IMG/VR virus record: IMGVR_UViG_3300037069_002825
Location: 1 to 64,000 of that record
DNA from: a virus
Reading direction: 5' to 3' (one strand)
DNA length: 64,000 nucleotides
The notes beneath the pieces were generated by a model, which worked only from the letters and a program-made list of their open reading frames with translations, searched no databases and was not told the origin of the DNA. Shown piece after piece: positions 33,274-61,707 of the stretch (the stretch's first letter is position 1; each line of letters begins with the position of its first letter). The position numbers and the translations under genes are program-made.

Positions 33274-34245
33274 ATGATGGACGGAGACGGCAGTGGATTC
33301 AGTCAGGGCCTCGACGATGATCCCTTCGAGGGCTCGGAGTTCGACGACGAGCTGATGGGCGGCGGCGAGTCGGAGGGCGCGACCACCATCTCGCAGGCGG
33401 CTCAGGCCGCAGTGACGCACCCCGCGCCGGCCGAGGCGGCGCAGCCCATCGCACAGGCCGGGGTCGCCCAGGAGCCGGAGCTGCCCGTCGTGAACAGGGA
33501 GGGCGAGCCCGTCGACCCTCCGATTGCCCCTACGACTGGGGCATCGACTGTCCAGCCTGTCGCGACATCGCCAGCGGCGACTCCCGAGCCGGCTTCGGCC
33601 CCCGCCGATCAGACGGCGCCTTCGAGTTCCGAGTCCCCCGTTCTGAGTGGACCTGGTGAGCCCGGTGAGCTGCGCCGGGAGCCCGAGGAGGTCACGCCGG
33701 AGCGCGCAGCCGAGGAGCTGTCGGTAAACGCGGCGGTCGCCGAGGCACTGGTCGCCGACCCGTCGGAGCCGCAGGAGACGGAGAAGGCCGCCCGTGGTGG
33801 GGCGATGCTGGGATCGCCGGGCGAGCCGGAGCCGGACCCTACGCAGCCTTTCGAGCCGCCGAGCGCATCAGAGCCGACGCAAGACGTGCTTGAGCCCCTA
33901 GAGCCCGAGGACGCAGCGCCGCCGGAGCAGGTGGCCACCAAAGACGGGCGAGTGACGCACAGGCGCTATGTGGTCCTGACCCCAGACAGGGGCGGCGTTT
34001 TTAGGCGCGTCTACTGGTACGAGAAGAATGGCGAGCTGTGCACGCGGGGCACACCGGGAGCGAAGCGCCAGAGCCTCGCGCTTGCGCGAGACGCGGACGG
34101 CGCCCGAGCCATCGCCTACCGAGCGTTGGGCAACGAGGGCCCAGTCGATCTCGTTGCGGTCTCGGAGTCCAACTTCCAGGTTGTGACAGTCGAGCCCGAC
34201 GAACCGAAACCTGCCAAGCGCAAGCTGAAAATGACCCGGCGGTAG
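33274..34245 (+). CDS. Acidic low-complexity protein with a folded C-terminal domain
   Basis: The 323-residue protein follows the helicase by 12 bases, after GAGAGGAGC. Residues about 1-225 are disordered and rich in Pro, Ala, Glu and Ser. Residues about 228-323 look folded (RRYVVLTPDRGGVFRRVYWYE) and end in a basic tail. A role with the replication proteins is likely from position; the family is unknown. Confidence 0.55.
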   Translation: MMDGDGSGFSQGLDDDPFEGSEFDDELMGGGESEGATTISQAAQAAVTHPAPAEAAQPIAQAGVAQEPELPVVNREGEPVDPPIAPTTGASTVQPVATSPAATPEPASAPADQTAPSSSESPVLSGPGEPGELRREPEEVTPERAAEELSVNAAVAEALVADPSEPQETEKAARGGAMLGSPGEPEPDPTQPFEPPSASEPTQDVLEPLEPEDAAPPEQVATKDGRVTHRRYVVLTPDRGGVFRRVYWYEKNGELCTRGTPGAKRQSLALARDADGARAIAYRALGNEGPVDLVAVSESNFQVVTVEPDEPKPAKRKLKMTRR

Positions 34246-34257
34246 GAGAAGAGTCCG

Positions 34258-34614
34258 ATGGCAGAGCAGGTGAAAGCCAACGAGAAGGAGATGCAACTCA
34301 AGATCACGGGTTGCTCTCCCGTCTATTCGGGGAAAAATACACGCGGCGACGACTATACGATCTTCGAGATATTTGCGGAGAAGCCAGACGGCACGCCGAT
34401 AACCGAAAAGCTCAGGGCTTTCACCGCTCTGCCGGTCGGACAGTTCATGGACGTGACAGTAAAAGCCTTCAACAGCGAGGAGCACGGACGCTCCTTCACC
34501 GTCTTCCCAAAGGACAAGAAAGCCAGTGCCACCCAGGCCGTGAACGAGCTGACCGAGATGGTCACCGACCTCATGCGCCGGGTGGGAGAGTTGGAGAGGC
34601 GCGGTGGTGTCTAG
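34258..34614 (+). CDS. Single-stranded DNA-binding-like protein
   Basis: The 118-residue protein has an OB-fold-like beta pattern (MQLKITGCSPVYSGKN, DDYTIFEIFAEK, FMDVTVKAF) and a C-terminal helix instead of the usual acidic SSB tail. It sits between the helicase and a sigma-like gene. The fold call is by pattern only. Confidence 0.45.
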   Translation: MAEQVKANEKEMQLKITGCSPVYSGKNTRGDDYTIFEIFAEKPDGTPITEKLRAFTALPVGQFMDVTVKAFNSEEHGRSFTVFPKDKKASATQAVNELTEMVTDLMRRVGELERRGGV

Positions 34615-34655
34615 GCGACACCCGTCCGAGTGTCAGTGCTACAGTGTCCGCCGAG

Positions 34656-35264
34656 ATGAGTAACTCGTCGCTTAGCGCCGTCGAGCTGGAGCCCTACGAG
34701 GGCCTGATCTTCACCACGGCGCGCAGATTTGCCACGAGATGCGGGATGGAGGAAGAGGATCTCCGTCAAGAGCTACGGCTCAAGGCGGCTCAGGCGGTGG
34801 TGAAATACGACTCCTCGCGGAGCAGGCAGCCACTCGCAAACTGGGTGTTCAGCCTGATAGTGAATCGGGTGACAGATCTACGGCGCACACACATGCGCCA
34901 AAGGCTGAGCGTGGGCCACATCGAGGATTTCAGGGGTCACAGTAGCGACGGCAGTGATATGGACCTCAGCCAGTTCGAGCTGCGCTACTTTCACCTCGAT
35001 CACGACACCGTCTACGGGCGCATCGATGAGGGCGGGTTCGTAATGCCCGCGACCCTCACCGAGCGCGAGACGAACGTGTTGCGCCTGCTCCTGCTCGACT
35101 ACTCCAAGGTGGAAGCCGCGAAGATCCTCGGCCTCACCGACTGGATGGTGTACGAAGCGGTCGAACGGCTGAGAGAAAAGCTCAGCGACTGGCACCCTAC
35201 CTCACAGCCCGACAACTGTTCAGTTGTCGGGCTGCACGGCGCCGAGCTTCCCGTCGCTGCCTAG
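34656..35264 (+). CDS. Sigma-70-family-like factor
   Basis: ATG 34656 gives 202 residues. Residues about 10-85 match region 2 (EGLIFTTARRFATRCGMEEEDLRQELRL and NRVTDLRR) and residues about 130-185 match region 4 (TERETNVLRLLLLDYSKVEAAKILGLT with a following DNA-reading helix). Region 1 and region 3 are missing, as in ECF factors. It may direct host polymerase to phage promoters. A -10-like TACAGT (34640-34645) lies 10 bases before the start. Confidence 0.65.
   Translation: MSNSSLSAVELEPYEGLIFTTARRFATRCGMEEEDLRQELRLKAAQAVVKYDSSRSRQPLANWVFSLIVNRVTDLRRTHMRQRLSVGHIEDFRGHSSDGSDMDLSQFELRYFHLDHDTVYGRIDEGGFVMPATLTERETNVLRLLLLDYSKVEAAKILGLTDWMVYEAVERLREKLSDWHPTSQPDNCSVVGLHGAELPVAA
35206..35233. terminator. 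Strong bidirectional hairpin inside two converging gene ends
   Basis: A perfect 13-bp inverted repeat (35206-35218 with 35221-35233, 2-base loop) lies in the last codons of both the sigma-like gene and the leftward gene at 35220. It likely terminates both transcripts; the genes overlap by 45 bases around it. Confidence 0.65.
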
Positions 35265-35585
35265 CTCGCGGCCGTGCAAAACGCCGGCTAGGTAGGAAAC
35301 CAGCATCGCGTAGACCCAGCTCCTGACAGCGCCCTCGGCATCAGCTATCTCCTCGCGAAGGTTCAGATCGGACCTCTTGAACTGGGCCTCGACCGCGACT
35401 ATCAGCTCGTCGAAGCTCTCGCGTGTGGCGAGCATAATCGCTCCGCCTGTGGCGTTGATGTCTACTCCTAGCGCCGCACAGTTGCCCTCCAGCGCCGCGA
35501 GCGCGCTCGCGGCGTCCTCGTTGGACCACATCGGCCATCGCTGGATCTCCGCGAACAGTTCGGCGACCTGCTCCTCGGACTTCAT
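35220..35585 (-). CDS. Last gene of the leftward operon, function unknown
   Basis: The 121-residue acidic helical protein starts at ATG 35585, overlapping the integrase stop. It contains SWVYAMLVSYLAGVLHGREL. Being coupled to the integrase it could be a directionality factor, but it lacks the basic composition of Xis proteins, so this is a guess. Confidence 0.5.
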   Translation of the reverse strand: MKSEEQVAELFAEIQRWPMWSNEDAASALAALEGNCAALGVDINATGGAIMLATRESFDELIVAVEAQFKRSDLNLREEIADAEGAVRSWVYAMLVSYLAGVLHGRELGSDGKLGAVQPDN

Positions 35586-36598
35586 GCCACGAGCCCGAGA
35601 CGCTCAGCGAACGCGCCTTCCGTCTGTTCGCCAACGCGCTGGATGTCGGCCTTTGCGATGCGTGCGTAGGCAAGGGTCTGATCGATCGAGCCGTGTCCCA
35701 TCGTGATCTGGAGGTGCTCAAGCGGCATGCCGGCGCGCAGGCTCTCGGTTGCGTAGGTGTGACGGAACGGGTGCCAGTTCCAGACCTTACCGGAGAGGCT
35801 GATCCCGTTGTGCATCTGGTCGAGTGTCATTGGCGTGAGGTAGTCCGGTGGGTACAGCCGGAGCCACGGTCGGTTGTGGGTGACGCCGAGTCGCTCGCGG
35901 AACTCCAGCCATTCGGCGACGGCTAGGCGTGAATGGGCCATGTAGGGGACCTCGCGTTCCTTCGCCGTGCCCGGTCCCTGCTTGGCGGTGACGACGATCA
36001 CACCGTCGTTGTCGGGGTGAATCTGGGCCATCGTAATATGGCATATCTCGATGCAACGCAGGCCCTCCTCCAACGCGAGTGAGACCTGCGCCTCCAGCTG
36101 GTAGCGCCTCGCCCATAGCCAGATCCCCCGTTGGATCGGCGTCTTGCCCTCGTCGAAGCGCTTGAGTTTGCGAGAGCCCTTCCCGCTCAGCGGCGGTGAC
36201 GGGTAACGCTCGGCCAGCTCGCGGTAGAAGGTGCGGATCTCGCTGGGTGTGTAGGGCTTCGGCGTAGACTGCGCGGAGCTGCCCCGTGGGTTCGGTACGG
36301 CTTTCAGGCGCAGGCGCAGCTCGGCGTCGATGAGTCCCGCTCTAAAGGCCCACGTGTGAAAGGCGCGAATCATCCCGTGCTTCGTTCGTACGGTGTTGGG
36401 GTGAAGACCACGGTCAATCTCGGCACCCATCCACTCCATGACCTCGCCGGGTTGCATCTCCACCAGCGGACGGTCATTCAGCACTTCCTCGGCAAAGCTC
36501 CCCAGCAGGGCAAGCTGTTCCTTGCGCCGCTGGGGAGTCACGCTGTTGGGCGCCATGTGCTCTTGCTCAAAGCGCAGCAGCAGCTCCTTGTTCGTCAT
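35582..36598 (-). CDS. int: Tyrosine integrase
   Basis: The 338-residue protein has an N-terminal core-binding helix domain (about 1-90) and a catalytic domain with the full set: R181 (GLRCIE), K206 (TAKQG), H276 and R279 (HPFRH), H302 (GHGS) and Y311 (LAYARI). It mediates site-specific integration, which marks the phage as temperate. It is coupled to the downstream gene and lies 4 bases from the HTH regulator gene upstream. An insertion at residues about 133-160 is longer than usual. No attachment site could be identified. Confidence 0.9.
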   Translation of the reverse strand: MTNKELLLRFEQEHMAPNSVTPQRRKEQLALLGSFAEEVLNDRPLVEMQPGEVMEWMGAEIDRGLHPNTVRTKHGMIRAFHTWAFRAGLIDAELRLRLKAVPNPRGSSAQSTPKPYTPSEIRTFYRELAERYPSPPLSGKGSRKLKRFDEGKTPIQRGIWLWARRYQLEAQVSLALEEGLRCIEICHITMAQIHPDNDGVIVVTAKQGPGTAKEREVPYMAHSRLAVAEWLEFRERLGVTHNRPWLRLYPPDYLTPMTLDQMHNGISLSGKVWNWHPFRHTYATESLRAGMPLEHLQITMGHGSIDQTLAYARIAKADIQRVGEQTEGAFAERLGLVA

Positions 36599-36602
36599 GG
36601 GC

Positions 36603-37085
36603 TTAGGACGCGGTCCCGGTCCCGGGGACGGTGGTGACCTTCAGGGCGAGGCTCGCATCCTCCAGGCGCTGCCTGCGCTCGGCCAGCTCGGAGATCTCAA
36701 ACGTCAACGCTTCGACCCGACCCTCGACGTGGGCGATGCGCCCGGTGACGGTCGCCAGCTCACGTGAGACGTGATCCTCGACCGACAGGGCATCGTCCGG
36801 CCGAGCGTCGAGCAGGGTCGGTTCACCTTTGATACCCGAGCGCTTGGGGGCGTCCGCCTTCGGCCGTGAGGTGATGGCCTGCCCTGTCCGGGCGCGCGGG
36901 CTACGGCGACCGCGCCGCGATCCCAGGCCGCCGATTTTGTAGCCGGCCTCCTCTATCCGCCGTTTGTGCTGGTAGATGCCGTTCACCGAGATGCCCATGA
37001 CCTTTGCGGCCTCCTCGGCATCCTTTCCTGCGACCAGCAGGTCATGCACCCGCTGTTGCTTCGGTGTGAGCTTGGCTTTCGCCAT
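36603..37085 (-). CDS. Helix-turn-helix regulator with a C-terminal coiled coil
   Basis: The 160-residue protein has an N-terminal DNA-binding domain of the LuxR/sigma-4 type (LTPKQQRVHDLLVAGKDAEE, then VMGISVNGIYQHKRRI), a basic linker and a coiled coil (about 110-150) that could give dimers. It lies just upstream of the integrase gene, so it may control lysogeny genes or the operon. A small terminase-like HTH is a weaker alternative. Confidence 0.6.
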   Translation of the reverse strand: MAKAKLTPKQQRVHDLLVAGKDAEEAAKVMGISVNGIYQHKRRIEEAGYKIGGLGSRRGRRSPRARTGQAITSRPKADAPKRSGIKGEPTLLDARPDDALSVEDHVSRELATVTGRIAHVEGRVEALTFEISELAERRQRLEDASLALKVTTVPGTGTAS

Positions 37086-42413: not shown

Positions 42414-44102
42414 TCAGGATATGTGTGTCGCGAGCATCGTCGTGGCGTCGCTCGGGTCAGTAAGATCGAAATCGCTGACGGGCACGACGTGCTCGCAGTA
42501 TTGGTCCAGGTAGTTGAAGCTGCCACCGATGCCGATGCCCCACAACCTGACCCCCATTTCTGTGAGCTGATTGCGCAGGCGCTCATCTTCGACGCTAAAG
42601 CCGGCCTCGCCGTCGCCGACCATGACCAGATCGGCCTTGCGGAACTCCGGCGCCTCGGACATCACCTTGGCCGCAGCCTGCACGCCGATCAGCGGGATGG
42701 TGCCGCCACCGAAGAAGTGAGAGCACATCTCCACGAGCAATTCGGGATCGAGGCCCTGCTTAGCCGGGAACATCCACTGTTCCGTCGAGCCGGAGAACTC
42801 GATGAGGCCAAAGTCTCGCTTCTCGGTCCTCGCGATGTGGAGTAGGCACATGGAGATCGCTCGCGCCCACACGTTCCGCTCACCGTCCATCGAGCTGGAG
42901 CCGTCAACGATCATGAGGATCGGACCACGACCAGCGTGCTCCTCCCCGACCGTGGAGTACACCAGCAGCTCGCTGCTCACGTACCGGGACAGGAAGTCGT
43001 CCTCCAGGTCGGCGTCCGCAAACGCGGCCAGCTCGCCAGCGGTGATGCGGTTCAGGGCGTCACCGAACTTGACATCCACAATCTCGTCCTGGCCGCCAGT
43101 GACACGCTTCGAGCGGTGGAAGCGGATATCGCGGTCGAGCCGGCCAAACATCTCGGCCATGCGCTTCAGGTCGGGGTTGTTGGTCCACTGCTCGGCGATG
43201 CTCAGCGCCTGCTCGGGCGACTTGTAGTGAGGCTCACCCGCGCCGAAGCCCTGGCCAAAGCTCGGGATGCCAGCGCCAGATTCCGCCGCTTCACCCCCCG
43301 CAGCCGCCGCCTGGGCGATGGCTTCAGCCGCAGCGGCAGACATTGGAGTGGCAGATTCGGCAGCGCCGATGGCCTGCTGTTGGGCCTGCTGCTTGGCCTT
43401 CACCTGTTCGGCGATCTGTTCCTTCAATGCCTGGGGTATCGGCTGGCCGTTTTCGTGGTGGTTGCGCGCTTCCTGGCGTAGACCTTCCAGCCCCTGCATC
43501 GCGGACTGGGCCTGTTCGCGCATCTGTTCGTATTCCTGCGACTCGCGCGCCTGCACCACAAGCTCCTCGGTGAGCGTGTCCTTGAGCTTGTCGAGCACGG
43601 CCATCGTCGCCAGCGCGGACATCGCGGGGTCCTCGCGGGTGACGTTACGAGACTGTGCGTGGTCGTCCGTCGAGAAGAGCTTGGGCAGGATGCGTTTATG
43701 CAGCGAGACGCCGGGGTCGACCGGATCATCAACGAGCTTGGGCTGTTCCCGGGAGTGATAGCTGTAGAACACGTCCCGAGTGAGGTCAGCCCAGGCCTTG
43801 TACGGCTCGGCTTTTTCACGCGCAGCCTTGGCGTCACGCGCAGCCTTCTGATACTCCTGGATCTCTTGCTGCGAGGCGGTGGTGATGTCGATCATGTCCG
43901 GCTCCGGCACGTCGGGCACGATCACCGGCGCCTCTTTGACGGCCATGCGCTGGAAACGCGGGCTGTCTTCCACGTAGGTGTTGTGCTCCAGTTGGTCGAT
44001 CGAATCGTGAGCGACCACAGAGCGGTCCAGCTTCACCTTAGGCGCAGCGATGCGCTGTCCGGCGTGACCGAACAGGCGCTGTAGTCGCTCACTGATTGGC
44101 AT
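42414..44102 (-). CDS. VWA-domain protein (ViaA/CobT-like partner)
   Basis: The 562-residue protein has a helical, charged N-terminal part (about 60-330, with a Gln/Ala-rich run near 210-280) and a C-terminal von Willebrand A domain. The metal site is DGSSSM (D400, S402, S404), with GGGTIP and VMVGDGEAG as later MIDAS loops. In RavA-ViaA and CobS-CobT pairs the VWA protein binds the AAA+ ring and links it to the substrate. Two genes upstream is the RavA-like ATPase, which fits that pairing. Confidence 0.75.
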   Translation of the reverse strand: MPISERLQRLFGHAGQRIAAPKVKLDRSVVAHDSIDQLEHNTYVEDSPRFQRMAVKEAPVIVPDVPEPDMIDITTASQQEIQEYQKAARDAKAAREKAEPYKAWADLTRDVFYSYHSREQPKLVDDPVDPGVSLHKRILPKLFSTDDHAQSRNVTREDPAMSALATMAVLDKLKDTLTEELVVQARESQEYEQMREQAQSAMQGLEGLRQEARNHHENGQPIPQALKEQIAEQVKAKQQAQQQAIGAAESATPMSAAAAEAIAQAAAAGGEAAESGAGIPSFGQGFGAGEPHYKSPEQALSIAEQWTNNPDLKRMAEMFGRLDRDIRFHRSKRVTGGQDEIVDVKFGDALNRITAGELAAFADADLEDDFLSRYVSSELLVYSTVGEEHAGRGPILMIVDGSSSMDGERNVWARAISMCLLHIARTEKRDFGLIEFSGSTEQWMFPAKQGLDPELLVEMCSHFFGGGTIPLIGVQAAAKVMSEAPEFRKADLVMVGDGEAGFSVEDERLRNQLTEMGVRLWGIGIGGSFNYLDQYCEHVVPVSDFDLTDPSDATTMLATHIS

Positions 44103-44121
44103 GGTGGTCCTTCCCCCCCCT

Positions 44122-44535
44122 TTAGGAGCTGTAGGTCGCCCGCTCGTTGTCGGTGGGATAGATGACGCCCAGCTCAGGGTCGTCTACCGAGAAGGCGATA
44201 AAGTCGTCGCTTGCGGCGGCGTAACGGTTGATCGCCCGTTCGAGAAAGCTCACGCCGTAGGGCTGTGGCGCGGGCTTGGCGGGAATCGCGGTCTTCGTGA
44301 GTGGGAGCACTAGGACTGTTCCGACATTCCTCCTCTCCTCGAAGGGAATCGCGGCGCCGCCGCTTTCCAGCTCGTCGGCCATCGTCCGGAGCGCTGTGAC
44401 TGCCTTCGGGCGCAGTCGCTCGATCGCGGCCTCGCGCTTAGCCGTCCAGCCGTCACGTTCTCGTACGAGCCTATCCCGCTGCTTAGTCGCATCCGAAATC
44501 AGCTTTTTCCTGTCGATCTTGATTTTCGCGGCCAT
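44122..44535 (-). CDS. Coiled-coil protein between the VWA and MoxR genes
   Basis: The 137-residue protein starts with a basic helix (KLISDATKQRDRLVRERDGW) and continues with a beta part. It lies between the two module genes with short gaps, so it likely belongs to the same complex. No known family. Confidence 0.6.
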   Translation of the reverse strand: MAAKIKIDRKKLISDATKQRDRLVRERDGWTAKREAAIERLRPKAVTALRTMADELESGGAAIPFEERRNVGTVLVLPLTKTAIPAKPAPQPYGVSFLERAINRYAAASDDFIAFSVDDPELGVIYPTDNERATYSS

Positions 44536-44563
44536 GTTGCTCCCTTTTTGTGGTGGTGGATTG

Positions 44564-45784
44564 CTAAGCGGCCTCGCCGGTGAGGGCCGTCTCGGCCCAT
44601 TCCAGCGCGGTTGCGATCTGCGCAGCGACCCCTTCGAGCATCGTCACGTCCTGGCCCTGTTTCTTGCCGTCAGCGATGGCGGTGGCGCTGTTTTTACGCA
44701 GCTTGCGGAGGTTGCGCATCAGCTTCCAGCCGCTGTCCATCAGCTCGTCCTTCTCCTCCTCGGTGCCGGCGCCTTCGAGGTTCGACTTCAGCTCTTCCAT
44801 TTCGAGGTTGATCGGCTCGAATGCCTCACGCAGTTCCGTCGCCTTGCGAGTAAACCTGCTAGCGAACTCCAAGATCACGTTGCGCGCCGAGTCGATGTCA
44901 TCGGGTCGATCCCAGGCCATGTGCTGGCAGGGCAGCAGATCGTCAGACGCCACGGTGGTGCGTTCGTTTGACCATGCGCGCGCCTTGATGACCTTCCACA
45001 TCTGCCCGATGCGTCGCTGGCTGGGAGGATGGGAGGCCTCAAGCCATTTCGCCTGAGCATTGACCATCGTGTCGCGGATCGCGTCCGGGACCTTGACAGT
45101 GCGCACCTCCTCGCGGATGGCGTAAATCTCTTCGAGCGACAGCGGTTCGAGGCCGGTCGTGTCGATCCCTTCGCTCTGGAAGTCCAGCTGGATGTCCGTG
45201 ACCGCGCGCCGGTCTTCCGGCGAGCGCACTTCCTTCACGATCTTGGTGATCCCGATACGGTTACGGAACGCAGCGAGGTCCTCGCGGTCGGGCAACTCGT
45301 TGGAGGACATCAGGATCGCCAGGAGCTGTTTGCAGTCCTGCACCACACCACCAGTCTTTAGGATGCGGTTGGCGAGCAGATCGAGCAGCGGGTTGAGCAT
45401 CGGCGGTGAGGCCTTGAACACCTCGTCGAGGTAGGCGTAGTTTGCCTCGGGGAGGTAGCCAGCCGTGAGACGAGCGATCTTGCCTTCCTTCATCGCCATG
45501 ATGTCCCGTGGTCCCAGCACCTCGTCTGCCGATTGGTCCTTGGCGAGCAGGTGCGAGAACAGTGCGCTTTCGGTGAGACACTCGTTCACCAGAAGCTCGA
45601 TCATCCACGTCTTGCCAACGCCGGGATCGCCGAGCAGGAGCATGTCCACGCCCGAGATCGTTGCAAGGCCGAGTAGTTCGATCTCCTCACGTCTGTCGAT
45701 GTTGTGCCGGTCGAGGAACCCGTCGGCGCCAAAAATTGTCTGGTAGCGCTGAACGAGCGTCTGCTGTGCGGTTGCGGTTGCCAT
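44564..45784 (-). CDS. RavA-like MoxR-family AAA+ ATPase
   Basis: The 406-residue protein has Walker A GDPGVGKT (52-59), a segment DEVLGPRDIMAMKEGKI then LTAGYLPEANYAYLDEVFKA (Walker B near 116-124), and SSNELPD (sensor 1). The order 'EEVFGP...LTSGYLPEA...LDEIWKA...SNELPE' is that of E. coli RavA. RavA with ViaA remodels respiratory and metabolic complexes in bacteria. Here it lies in one operon with a VWA gene and two companions. The substrate in a phage is unknown. Confidence 0.8.
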   Translation of the reverse strand: MATATAQQTLVQRYQTIFGADGFLDRHNIDRREEIELLGLATISGVDMLLLGDPGVGKTWMIELLVNECLTESALFSHLLAKDQSADEVLGPRDIMAMKEGKIARLTAGYLPEANYAYLDEVFKASPPMLNPLLDLLANRILKTGGVVQDCKQLLAILMSSNELPDREDLAAFRNRIGITKIVKEVRSPEDRRAVTDIQLDFQSEGIDTTGLEPLSLEEIYAIREEVRTVKVPDAIRDTMVNAQAKWLEASHPPSQRRIGQMWKVIKARAWSNERTTVASDDLLPCQHMAWDRPDDIDSARNVILEFASRFTRKATELREAFEPINLEMEELKSNLEGAGTEEEKDELMDSGWKLMRNLRKLRKNSATAIADGKKQGQDVTMLEGVAAQIATALEWAETALTGEAA

Positions 45785-55118: not shown

Positions 55119-55900
55119 GCACGCAACCCGACTACGAGTATCGGCTCTCGTGGGAGTGCCCGAGCGCCGCTTGTGTCATGGCTCATCAGGGCGTGGCTTG
55201 GGAGACGCTGACGGCTGAGGAATGGGACGGCCTTCCGTGGGAGTCGAGCTACCGGATCGCGGACGGCGGTGACATCTTCACGCAGCGACACACGCTCGAA
55301 CTATGGGCCGAGCATCACCACGAGCCCGTGCGCAACGTCCGCTTCGCGCGTCGCCCCATGCCCGATCCCGACGAGGGCTGGGACGAGATCGCTGAGCGTG
55401 GGGCGACGGGAGTAACCCACTGGAAGCCAGTTGACCGTGTCATGGCGCGGGCCGATGGCTCACCCGAGCACTCCCCGCACATCACGACGGCGCATCGCGT
55501 CTATGAGGGGAGCAGCGGTGAGATCGTGGTCGATCCCCCCGTTGACGGGCCGCACGTCTTCATCAACCGGCTGCGGTACGGGAACCTCTCGGAGCCGATG
55601 AGCGGGAGGGCGCTCCGCCTGCTACCCAACCCTCCGGTACCCGAAGACGACGACCTGTGGGAAGAGACTGCGGTCGGTGCCGATGGGGACCGTCTTGTCG
55701 GCCGTGACGACGTCCTGAAGGTCGGGAACGGCGAGCGGTTCTACACATCGCCTTCGTCAATCACTGCGGGCTCACCCGAGCACTCCACGGAGGAGGCGAA
55801 GGTCTGCAAGCTTTGCAACGGGAGGGGTTACCGGAAAGTGGCGGGTGCGCCCTACAGCGAACCGTGTGGCTGCGAGCACTCCACGGAGCCCGAGCGATGA
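55115..55900 (+). CDS. Modular protein ending in a DnaJ-like zinc motif
   Basis: The 261-residue protein has an N-terminal region (SWECPSAACVMAHQGV), a RADGSPEHS linker near residue 115, a middle domain and a final AGSPEHS linker followed by CKLCNGRGYRK and CGC. The same DNA repeat encodes the linkers as in the previous gene. The role is unknown. Confidence 0.55.
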   Translation: MSTQPDYEYRLSWECPSAACVMAHQGVAWETLTAEEWDGLPWESSYRIADGGDIFTQRHTLELWAEHHHEPVRNVRFARRPMPDPDEGWDEIAERGATGVTHWKPVDRVMARADGSPEHSPHITTAHRVYEGSSGEIVVDPPVDGPHVFINRLRYGNLSEPMSGRALRLLPNPPVPEDDDLWEETAVGADGDRLVGRDDVLKVGNGERFYTSPSSITAGSPEHSTEEAKVCKLCNGRGYRKVAGAPYSEPCGCEHSTEPER

Positions 55901-56445
55901 GCGATCGGCTTCGGATCGTCCCGATGATGCGCGACGAGGCGAACGATTTCGTGAAGCGCCATCATCGCCATTCGGGCATCCGCCAGGGCTACCGCTTTGC
56001 TCTCGGCGCCGCGCTCGGTGACGAGTTGGTTGGCGTGGCGATCGTCGGTCGTCCCGTGGCGCGTGGTCTGCAGGATGGCTGGACGGCCGAGGTTCTTCGG
56101 CTATGCACGACAGGCACGCGCAACGCCTGCTCGTTTCTCTATGGCGCTTGCTGGCGCGCTGCTAGAGCGCTCGGCTATACGAAGCTCGTCACGTACACCC
56201 TCGCGAGCGAGGCAGGAGCGTCGCTTCGCGCGTCGGGCTGGCGCGTAGTCGCCGAGGTAAAGGGCCGCGAGTGGACGACCCCGAGCCGCCCACGCGACCC
56301 AAGTCACCCACAGGATCGTCTCCGCTGGGAGCTGGCCGAGCACCCCACGACTGAACCGGCTGGACGTAAAGCGGTATCTGCTGAGGATCTCGCGCAGGCG
56401 ATTGACGGAGTTGCAGCCGGCATGATAGCTTCGCAACGCGCATAG
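55897..56445 (+). CDS. GNAT-like acetyltransferase (XF1762-type)
   Basis: ATG 55897 gives 182 residues with the conserved set FVKRHHRHSGI, GVAIVGRPVAR, EVLRLCTTGTRNACS and TYTLASEAGASLRASGW. This is the pattern of a phage-common family of N-acetyltransferases named after XF1762. The acceptor is unknown. It overlaps the previous stop by ATGA. Confidence 0.7.
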   Translation: MSDRLRIVPMMRDEANDFVKRHHRHSGIRQGYRFALGAALGDELVGVAIVGRPVARGLQDGWTAEVLRLCTTGTRNACSFLYGACWRAARALGYTKLVTYTLASEAGASLRASGWRVVAEVKGREWTTPSRPRDPSHPQDRLRWELAEHPTTEPAGRKAVSAEDLAQAIDGVAAGMIASQRA

Positions 56446-59890: not shown

Positions 59891-60075
59891 ATATGTAATG
59901 ATCCCCAAATCGGTGCGGTCGGCCACTGATGTGCACATGGGAACCCACAAGCCGACAGCGCGAGCGAACCTTCCTGCGACCCCCACGCCACGGGCACGTG
60001 CGGGAATCCCGGTAGGTCGGTGTGGCGCCGACCCCCGGGCTCTCGCGTCCACTGCCCCTCAGTGAGTGTTGGGGC

Positions 60076-60099
60076 CGGGGCGTCGAAGGTTGCGCCCCG
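60076..60099 (+). terminator. Hairpin upstream of the structured RNA
   Basis: A 7-bp stem CGGGGCG/CGCCCCG (60076-60082 with 60093-60099) has a 10-base loop. It overlaps the -35 box of the RNA promoter and may separate it from upstream transcription. Confidence 0.4.
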
Positions 60100-60118
60100 C
60101 AAAGCTTCCCGTTATGAT
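60090..60118 (+). promoter_or_regulatory. Promoter of the structured RNA
   Basis: TTGCGC (60090-60095) and TATGAT (60113-60118) are separated by 17 bases, and the RNA-like structure starts 6 bases later. This is ideal spacing for a sigma-70-type promoter. Confidence 0.55.
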
Positions 60119-60123
60119 GCGTG

Positions 60124-60286
60124 GGCGCCCCTAGCTCAGTTAGCCCAGCCGCTTGAGCTAAGCACCAACGTAGTGCTTAGCGAGGTGAAAGAGCACCCGT
60201 GGACGAAACGGGAGGTCGTCGGTGGTGACCAAGGCCTCGATTGGATCGATCTGGGCGGCGGAAACCAGGGCCAGCCGGCGGGGCGC
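60124..60286 (+). ncRNA. Structured RNA with a tRNA-like 5' half
   Basis: The sequence folds with a 7-bp closing stem (60125-60131 with 60280-60286). Inside, TA and GCTC...GAGC follow the closing stem as in a tRNA D-arm, and a perfect 9-bp hairpin GCTAAGCAC/GTGCTTAGC (60157-60165 with 60173-60181) takes the anticodon-arm place. Two further stems lie near 60196-60212 (CCCGT/ACGGG) and 60251-60268 (CTGG/CCAG). No T-arm or CCA end is seen. It ends 14 bases before the gene at 60301, so it may be a leader RNA rather than a tRNA. The fold is my own reading. Confidence 0.5.
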
Positions 60287-60300
60287 ACTCGAAGTGTTGT

Positions 60301-60678
60301 ATGATCCCACACGTGGATATTTATGACACCTACTCGGAGGTGCAGCGGCGGAAGGATAGGCCGATCTGGGAGGGCGAGGGCCCTTCCCGTGAGATGATCG
60401 AGAAGATCAGCGCGACGTTTCGCGCACAGGTGGGTCGCGAGATCGCCTCGGCCGAGCTAAAGACGACCCTGGACGGCATGGGCTGGCTGATGAGAATGGC
60501 CGCCGAGGAGGACGTCCCGCTGGAGGCTCTGATGCAGATCGCCGAAGACATCGAAAGTAAAGCGCGGGCCAACATCGCGCGGACCTCGATCGGGGTTCAC
60601 GACCAACTGTCAGTAGGCGTGGGCGCGGGCTTCTTCACTGGCCTGTGGGTCGGCATCCTATTCGAGCGGGAACGATGA
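60301..60678 (+). CDS. Small protein with a C-terminal hydrophobic helix
   Basis: ATG 60301 lies 14 bases after the structured RNA. The 125-residue protein is helical (MIEKISATFRAQVGREIASA) and ends with a short hydrophobic part (SVGVGAGFFTGLWVGILF). No family. A longer frame from 60241 exists but lies in the RNA. Confidence 0.55.
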   Translation: MIPHVDIYDTYSEVQRRKDRPIWEGEGPSREMIEKISATFRAQVGREIASAELKTTLDGMGWLMRMAAEEDVPLEALMQIAEDIESKARANIARTSIGVHDQLSVGVGAGFFTGLWVGILFERER

Positions 60679-61516: not shown

Positions 61517-61620
61517 GCCCATGTGGCGGAATTGGTAGACGCAGCCGGTCTAAACCCGGACAAAGCTCGAAGCCTCCTGGCGGCGGCGACGAGATGTGGG
61601 TTCGACTCCCACCGTGGGCA
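61517..61620 (+). tRNA. tRNA-Leu, anticodon read as UAA, with a long variable arm
   Basis: The acceptor stem GCCCATG pairs with CGTGGGC (61613-61619). The D-arm GGCGGAATTGGTAGACGC and the T-arm GTGGG-TTCGACT-CCCAC are canonical for Leu. The anticodon stem CCGG/CCGG frames the loop TCTAAAC, giving anticodon TAA but with C instead of U at position 33 and a G-A mismatch at the base. The variable region is about 35 bases, longer than the usual 10-20 of Leu. No CCA is encoded. It would read UUA, a rare codon here. Confidence 0.7.
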
Positions 61621-61707
61621 CCTTGTAGACTCTAGGGGATGAAAAGTCCGCGAATTGCGAGAACAAGGACCATGGTCTCGCGCATCTTCACGTAGGCTTC
61701 CTAGATC

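Follow-up and report, generated by a model that had tools for sequence, protein, structure and literature searches.

The window (the whole stretch of DNA that was analysed, 64 kb) is the first part of a 79.8-kb virus record. It belongs to a tailed phage that encodes a capsid-like protein, a tape measure, a DnaB helicase and a clamp-loader protein, together with a sigma-70 region 2 protein and a tyrosine-type integrase. All deposited phages are distant from it. Relatives sought through the capsid protein comprised one long syntenic phage (G001, an IMG/VR contig of 85 kb, with matching segments at ~25-55% amino-acid identity) and otherwise short fragments; a capsid search of 396 actinobacterial genomes gave 0 matches. 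A further IMG/VR contig, of 13,383 bases, encodes a capsid with 100% identity across 216 residues, and the tRNA-like element described below is absent from that contig. The genes of the window considered here are:

34038-35264, + strand: protein with sigma-70 region 2 (domain match)
35582-36598, - strand: tyrosine-type integrase (Pfam Phage_integrase, E 5e-13)
36603-37085, - strand: small HTH protein, weakly matching sigma region 4 (domain match)
42414-45784, - strand: MoxR-like ATPase adjoining a protein that weakly matches the VWA domain (homology)
55813-56445, + strand: Mom-like DNA modification protein (PHROG 1384, E 4e-38)
60301-60678, + strand: gene of 125 aa, function not assigned; its ATG start agrees with that of its homologue

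Given the tyrosine-type integrase, the phage may be temperate, and it may carry sigma-like factors of its own. Homologues of both the MoxR-like ATPase and its VWA-type neighbour occur in a Moorella phage, and homologues of the ATPase also in archaeal bicaudaviruses.

A cloverleaf frame with two enlarged loops

A full cloverleaf can be drawn for positions 60125-60287: its stems have 7/4/5/5 bp, the T stem lies directly against the acceptor stem, and a discriminator A stands at the end; 20 of the 21 stem pairs are Watson-Crick and the remaining one is G-U. From 5' to 3', its parts and the promoter-like pair that precedes them are:

60090-60118, + strand: promoter-like pair, TTGCGC (60090-60095), 17 nt, TATGAT (60113-60118), from the sequence
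60125-60131, + strand: acceptor stem 5' strand GCGCCCC, pairing 7/7 with 60280-60286 (probability 0.99-1.0)
60132-60133, + strand: TA (U8-A9), preceding the D stem
60134-60137, + strand: D stem 5' strand GCTC, pairing 4/4 with 60191-60194, thermodynamically not favoured
60138-60190, + strand: D-loop of 53 nt, made up of AGTTAGCC, an insert of ~44 nt and A; the Actinoplanes tRNA-Thr equivalent is AGTTGGCCA
60157-60181, + strand: perfect 9-bp hairpin (60157-60165/60173-60181) with a 7-nt loop, CAACGTA, within the D-loop insert
60191-60194, + strand: D stem 3' strand GAGC, pairing with 60134-60137 and followed by A26
60196-60212, + strand: anticodon arm CCCGT-GGACGAA-ACGGG; the stem is identical to that of Actinoplanes tRNA-Thr, where the loop is CTTGTAA
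60213-60217, + strand: variable loop AGGTC, the same as in tRNA-Thr
60218-60222, + strand: T stem 5' strand GTCGG, pairing 5/5 (one G-U) with 60275-60279 and followed by T54
60223-60274, + strand: T-loop of 52 nt, ~45 nt in excess, with its own hairpin in the predicted fold and edges that lack TTCRA
60275-60287, + strand: T stem 3' strand CCGGC, acceptor 3' strand GGGGCGC and discriminator A60287, assigned by pairing

The feature is real and is more tRNA-like than the initial annotation held. The 7-bp closing stem, the TA and GCTC/GAGC elements and the perfect 9-bp hairpin described there are all present at the positions listed. The window has five separate perfect hairpins with stems of 9 bp or longer, this hairpin among them. 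The same annotation reported that there was no T-arm and that the tRNA likeness lay in the 5' half. Both statements need correction: a T stem directly abuts the acceptor stem, and the most tRNA-like part is the 3' half (AGAGC A CCCGT..ACGGG AGGTC GTCGG T). The missing encoded CCA is uninformative, since CCA can be added by host enzymes. Because the D-loop exceeds the normal length by ~44 nt and the T-loop by ~45 nt, ARAGORN and Rfam RF00005 overlook the element; in the window only an element at 61517 scores (with Rfam, and with ARAGORN when introns are allowed).

We searched the window for cloverleaf geometry and scored 15 letters at standard conserved tRNA positions. Allowing loop lengths up to 70 and 75 nt, limits that were chosen after the element was seen, the search gave one match per strand. 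That on the + strand is the element, which carries 13 of the 15 letters and fails at positions 32 and 33; the - strand match has 16 Watson-Crick pairs and 4/15 letters. Among 400 dinucleotide shuffles there were 283 chance cloverleaves (0.71 per shuffled strand), none with more than 11/15 letters.

A 167-nt version of the element folds better than shuffled sequences (z -2.43, with 0/200 as stable). The unconstrained fold favours another arrangement by 5.4 kcal/mol (-75.4 versus -70.0 kcal/mol). In the unconstrained ensemble the 9-bp hairpin is firm, as is the acceptor stem; probabilities are 0.25-0.63 for the anticodon stem and zero for both the D stem and the T stem. Thus, as modelled, the D and T stems are not favoured by folding energy alone.

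The initial annotation placed a TTGCGC-N17-TATGAT promoter 6 bases before the stem. Both hexamers and the 17-nt spacer are indeed there, though the pair is weak (8/12 against consensus) and was therefore unlisted in a promoter scan with a threshold of 9/12. Across the window, combinations of TTGnnn, 16-18 nt and at least 5/6 of TATAAT number one on the + strand and two on the - strand, and the sole + strand pair is the one that ends 6 bases before the acceptor stem. Transcription is predicted to begin at or near G60125, the first acceptor base. On the + strand 3' of the element, no terminator-like site was present in the region scanned.

Relationship to threonine tRNA

A frame query, AGAGCACCCGT-N7-ACGGGAGGTCGTCGGT (34 nt, 27 specified bases), was run against sequences from 84,980 species of bacteria and archaea. 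It was found, with 27/27 specified bases matching, in 29 contigs, all from Actinoplanes/Paractinoplanes. The matched bases cover the D-3' strand, the anticodon stem, the variable loop, the T-5' strand and T54. At 28 of the 29 loci the sequence is readable as tRNA-Thr(UGU), while the remaining one (L023) is truncated by the edge of the locus and has identical anticodon and T arms; ARAGORN verified the tRNA-Thr identity at three of them. When the core without inserts and with the T-loop masked was compared with the 396 actinobacterial genomes, the first six matches were tRNA-Thr(UGU) genes (best E 1.2e-9). Its 11 matches in phages comprise nine annotated tRNA genes, four of them tRNA-Thr, and two unannotated sequences. 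A tRNA-Thr covariance model has its best match in the window at the element, but this match is weak and shifted in register (E 0.021).

Judged by its sequence, the core is clearly tRNA-derived, with tRNA-Thr as its nearest relative, which supports the initial annotation's suggestion of a tRNA mimic. This likeness is one of descent, not of function, and it does not prove that Actinoplanes is the phage host. The element shares its cloverleaf geometry and all 27 specified bases with actinobacterial tRNA-Thr(UGU), but differs in its acceptor stem, in its anticodon loop (GGACGAA, not CTTGTAA), in its D-loop and T-loop inserts and in having A rather than T as discriminator. At acceptor pairs 3-70 and 7-66 both sides differ from the Actinoplanes UGU set, with pairing kept in full.

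These results bear on the reading of the element as a chance fold in GC-rich, possibly coding DNA. Bare cloverleaf geometries do arise about 0.7 times per strand in such sequence. A frame of 94 aa (60020-60304) also overlaps the element; its stop and the next start share an ATGA. Read in this frame, 60125-60287 is mildly coding-like (codon score 0.11). However, the conserved letters of the element exceed those of every shuffle, the match to the tRNA-Thr frame is exact over 27 bases, and the 94-aa frame was rejected as a protein-coding gene, no protein relatives having been found; over 59895-60300 there is no convincing coding signal. We regard a chance origin as highly improbable.

For the whole element or its inserts no second copy was found, so that it stands as a single sequence. 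Exact and gapped DNA patterns in IMG/VR returned nothing or chance matches inside coding DNA, and phage and plasmid sequences gave no significant BLAST match to the region. With the full element, BLAST against the 396 actinobacterial genomes gave short scattered matches, among them one tRNA-Thr (in G008), the others looking like chance. The syntenic phage has neither such an element nor any tRNA. The inserts were also considered as repeats or mobile pieces, and neither the phage nor its relative holds a further full-length copy. An attachment site is not favoured: such a site would be expected to keep the tRNA 3' end with its T-loop, and here that end is interrupted.

Decoding, introns and the downstream gene

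A functional elongator tRNA has a four-stem 7/4/5/5 cloverleaf, which can be drawn here too, and also U33 and a 7-nt T-loop of the form TTCRANN. The anticodon loop of the element reads G32 G33 A34 C35 G36 A37 A38, and its T-loop has 52 nt. No single excision from that loop gives TTCRANN; the 7-nt loops that can be obtained are GGGCCAG, TGGCCAG, TGGTCAG, TGGTGAC and TGGTGAG. Because U33 and a TTCRA T-loop are absent and no single excision restores the latter, the sequence makes decoding unlikely.

The extra pieces might nonetheless be two small introns whose removal yields a working tRNA. They are similar in size, and removal of the D-loop insert can leave AGTTAGCCA, one letter off the tRNA-Thr AGTTGGCCA, which therefore places that insert at position 20/21. 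Archaeal tRNA genes can carry introns at 20/21, 53/54, 56/57 and 59/60, T-loop included, and intron-bearing archaeal pre-tRNAs resemble the element in the positions and number of their inserts (PMC4090602). They differ from it in that no bulge-helix-bulge is visible in the minimum-energy fold of the element (the D-insert has a 2x1 internal loop there), its T-loop is unrestored by excision, and the host is apparently bacterial. After excision U33 would still be absent. Group I introns are far longer than inserts of this size (~44 and ~45 nt), and there was no Rfam intron match. No tRNA splicing endonuclease of this archaeal type is known from bacteria. An intron-containing tRNA is very unlikely.

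Another suggestion in the initial annotation was a riboswitch-like leader ending shortly before a start codon. The distance is as described: the element ends at 60287, 13 bases separate it from the ATG at 60301, and this gap holds no strong Shine-Dalgarno sequence, all of which suits a cis-acting element that regulates the gene at 60301. Against this, the sequence of the element is a tRNA frame, and Rfam gave no match at E up to 10, riboswitches and T-boxes included. The only homologue found of the 60301 gene (L002, 27% identity) belongs to the syntenic phage, and its leader is ordinary and short, with the Shine-Dalgarno sequence GGAGGAGGAG and no tRNA-like fold. A riboswitch is disfavoured because the sole homologue lacks such a leader, and we consider regulation of this kind improbable, if slightly less so than introns.

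A candidate non-decoding tRNA-like RNA

The reading we prefer, at a probability of about 0.5, is that a tRNA-Thr gene has been exapted into a structured, non-decoding tRNA-like RNA. An ancestor of the phage would have acquired a threonine-type tRNA gene, which was then remodelled. Both extra pieces lie inside loops, near 20/21 in the D-loop and after T54 in the T-loop, and all four stems are still able to pair. If the phage transcribes the element, the promoter-like pair would start the RNA at about the first acceptor base. The tRNA body might be bound by RNase P or Z, the CCA-adding enzyme, modification enzymes, a synthetase or a tRNA-cutting defence nuclease, and the RNA would compete for or occupy one of these host proteins. 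Decoding has no part in the proposed mechanism because U33 and a normal T-loop are absent.

In favour of exaptation we count the shuffle test, the tRNA-Thr frame, the kept acceptor pairing, the promoter-like pair unique on the + strand, the stable fold, the lack of a convincing coding signal and the 94-aa frame having no protein match. Counted against it are the single sequence, the zero-probability D and T stems, the absence from the syntenic phage and the codon score of 0.11.

The main rival is a pseudogene: two insertions and mutations in the loops would have destroyed the function of a phage tRNA-Thr gene, recently enough that its stems are still intact. The absence of homologues, including from the syntenic relative, the loss of anticodon-loop and T-loop consensus and the unfavoured D and T stems are consistent with decay, as is a nearby tRNA-Leu-like gene (61517-61622) that is likewise unusual. 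Yet all 21 pairs are intact while the loops are altered, and both inserts hit loops, which account for 9 + 7 of the 74 positions of the parent tRNA. Each insert folds into a hairpin, that of the D-loop with a perfect 9-bp stem, and the promoter-like pair is retained. We consider a pseudogene a serious possibility, though less probable than exaptation.

One specific form of an exapted tRNA-like RNA is a decoy: the remodelled tRNA-Thr body with its extra stem-loops would tie up a host enzyme that binds tRNAs, for instance a defence nuclease that cuts them, with no use in translation. The extra stem-loops include a second 7-nt anticodon-like loop, CAACGTA, which shares with GGACGAA an ACG at loop positions 3-5. 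We put this forward tentatively and think it rather unlikely as stated.

Bacterial Y RNAs (YrlA) carry a tRNA-like module in a longer structured non-coding RNA, in phages as well, and accompany the Ro60/Rsr protein (TROVE domain). A tRNA-like body within a longer non-coding RNA is also what we propose for the element. A Ro60/Y RNA system was rejected, with no TROVE match in the 79.8-kb record, which is possibly incomplete, and no Rfam match.

Where phage tRNAs resist tRNA-cutting defences or neutralise them, they are thought to work by staying usable in translation (PMC10264068, PMC11555353). Like the element they are phage-borne and altered in the anticodon loop, whereas the element has lost U33 and the T-loop consensus. 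As far as the description of Mukai et al. 2017 in PMC7609411 goes, irregular allo-tRNA-like genes in soil metagenomes also have altered cloverleafs, and some are apparently not used in translation, with function not established. In the same account, allo-tRNAs are defined by serine identity and by an acceptor domain of 12 bp, split 8/4 or 9/3; the element, also 12 bp in sum in the 7/5 register examined here, is Thr-like and has loop inserts. Its 7/5 split and 27/27 tRNA-Thr match argue against an allo-tRNA, judging from sequence.

Roles in defence evasion and lysogeny are under discussion as reasons why phages keep tRNA genes (PMC10264068, PMC11555353, PMC10865867), and the element bears on this question. 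If the RNA is made and stable, a phage tRNA gene would have become a non-coding tRNA mimic. Such mimics would escape standard tRNA finders because both loops are swollen, and further cases could be sought as cloverleaf frames whose D- and T-loops are long.

The tRNA-Leu-like gene at 61517-61622 scores 45.7 bits with Rfam and is missed by default ARAGORN. Its anticodon is read as TAA, C replaces U at position 33 and the variable region is long; with introns allowed, ARAGORN reports a tRNA-Ala with a 29-nt intron. The TTA codon is used twice among the 11,030 phage codons counted.
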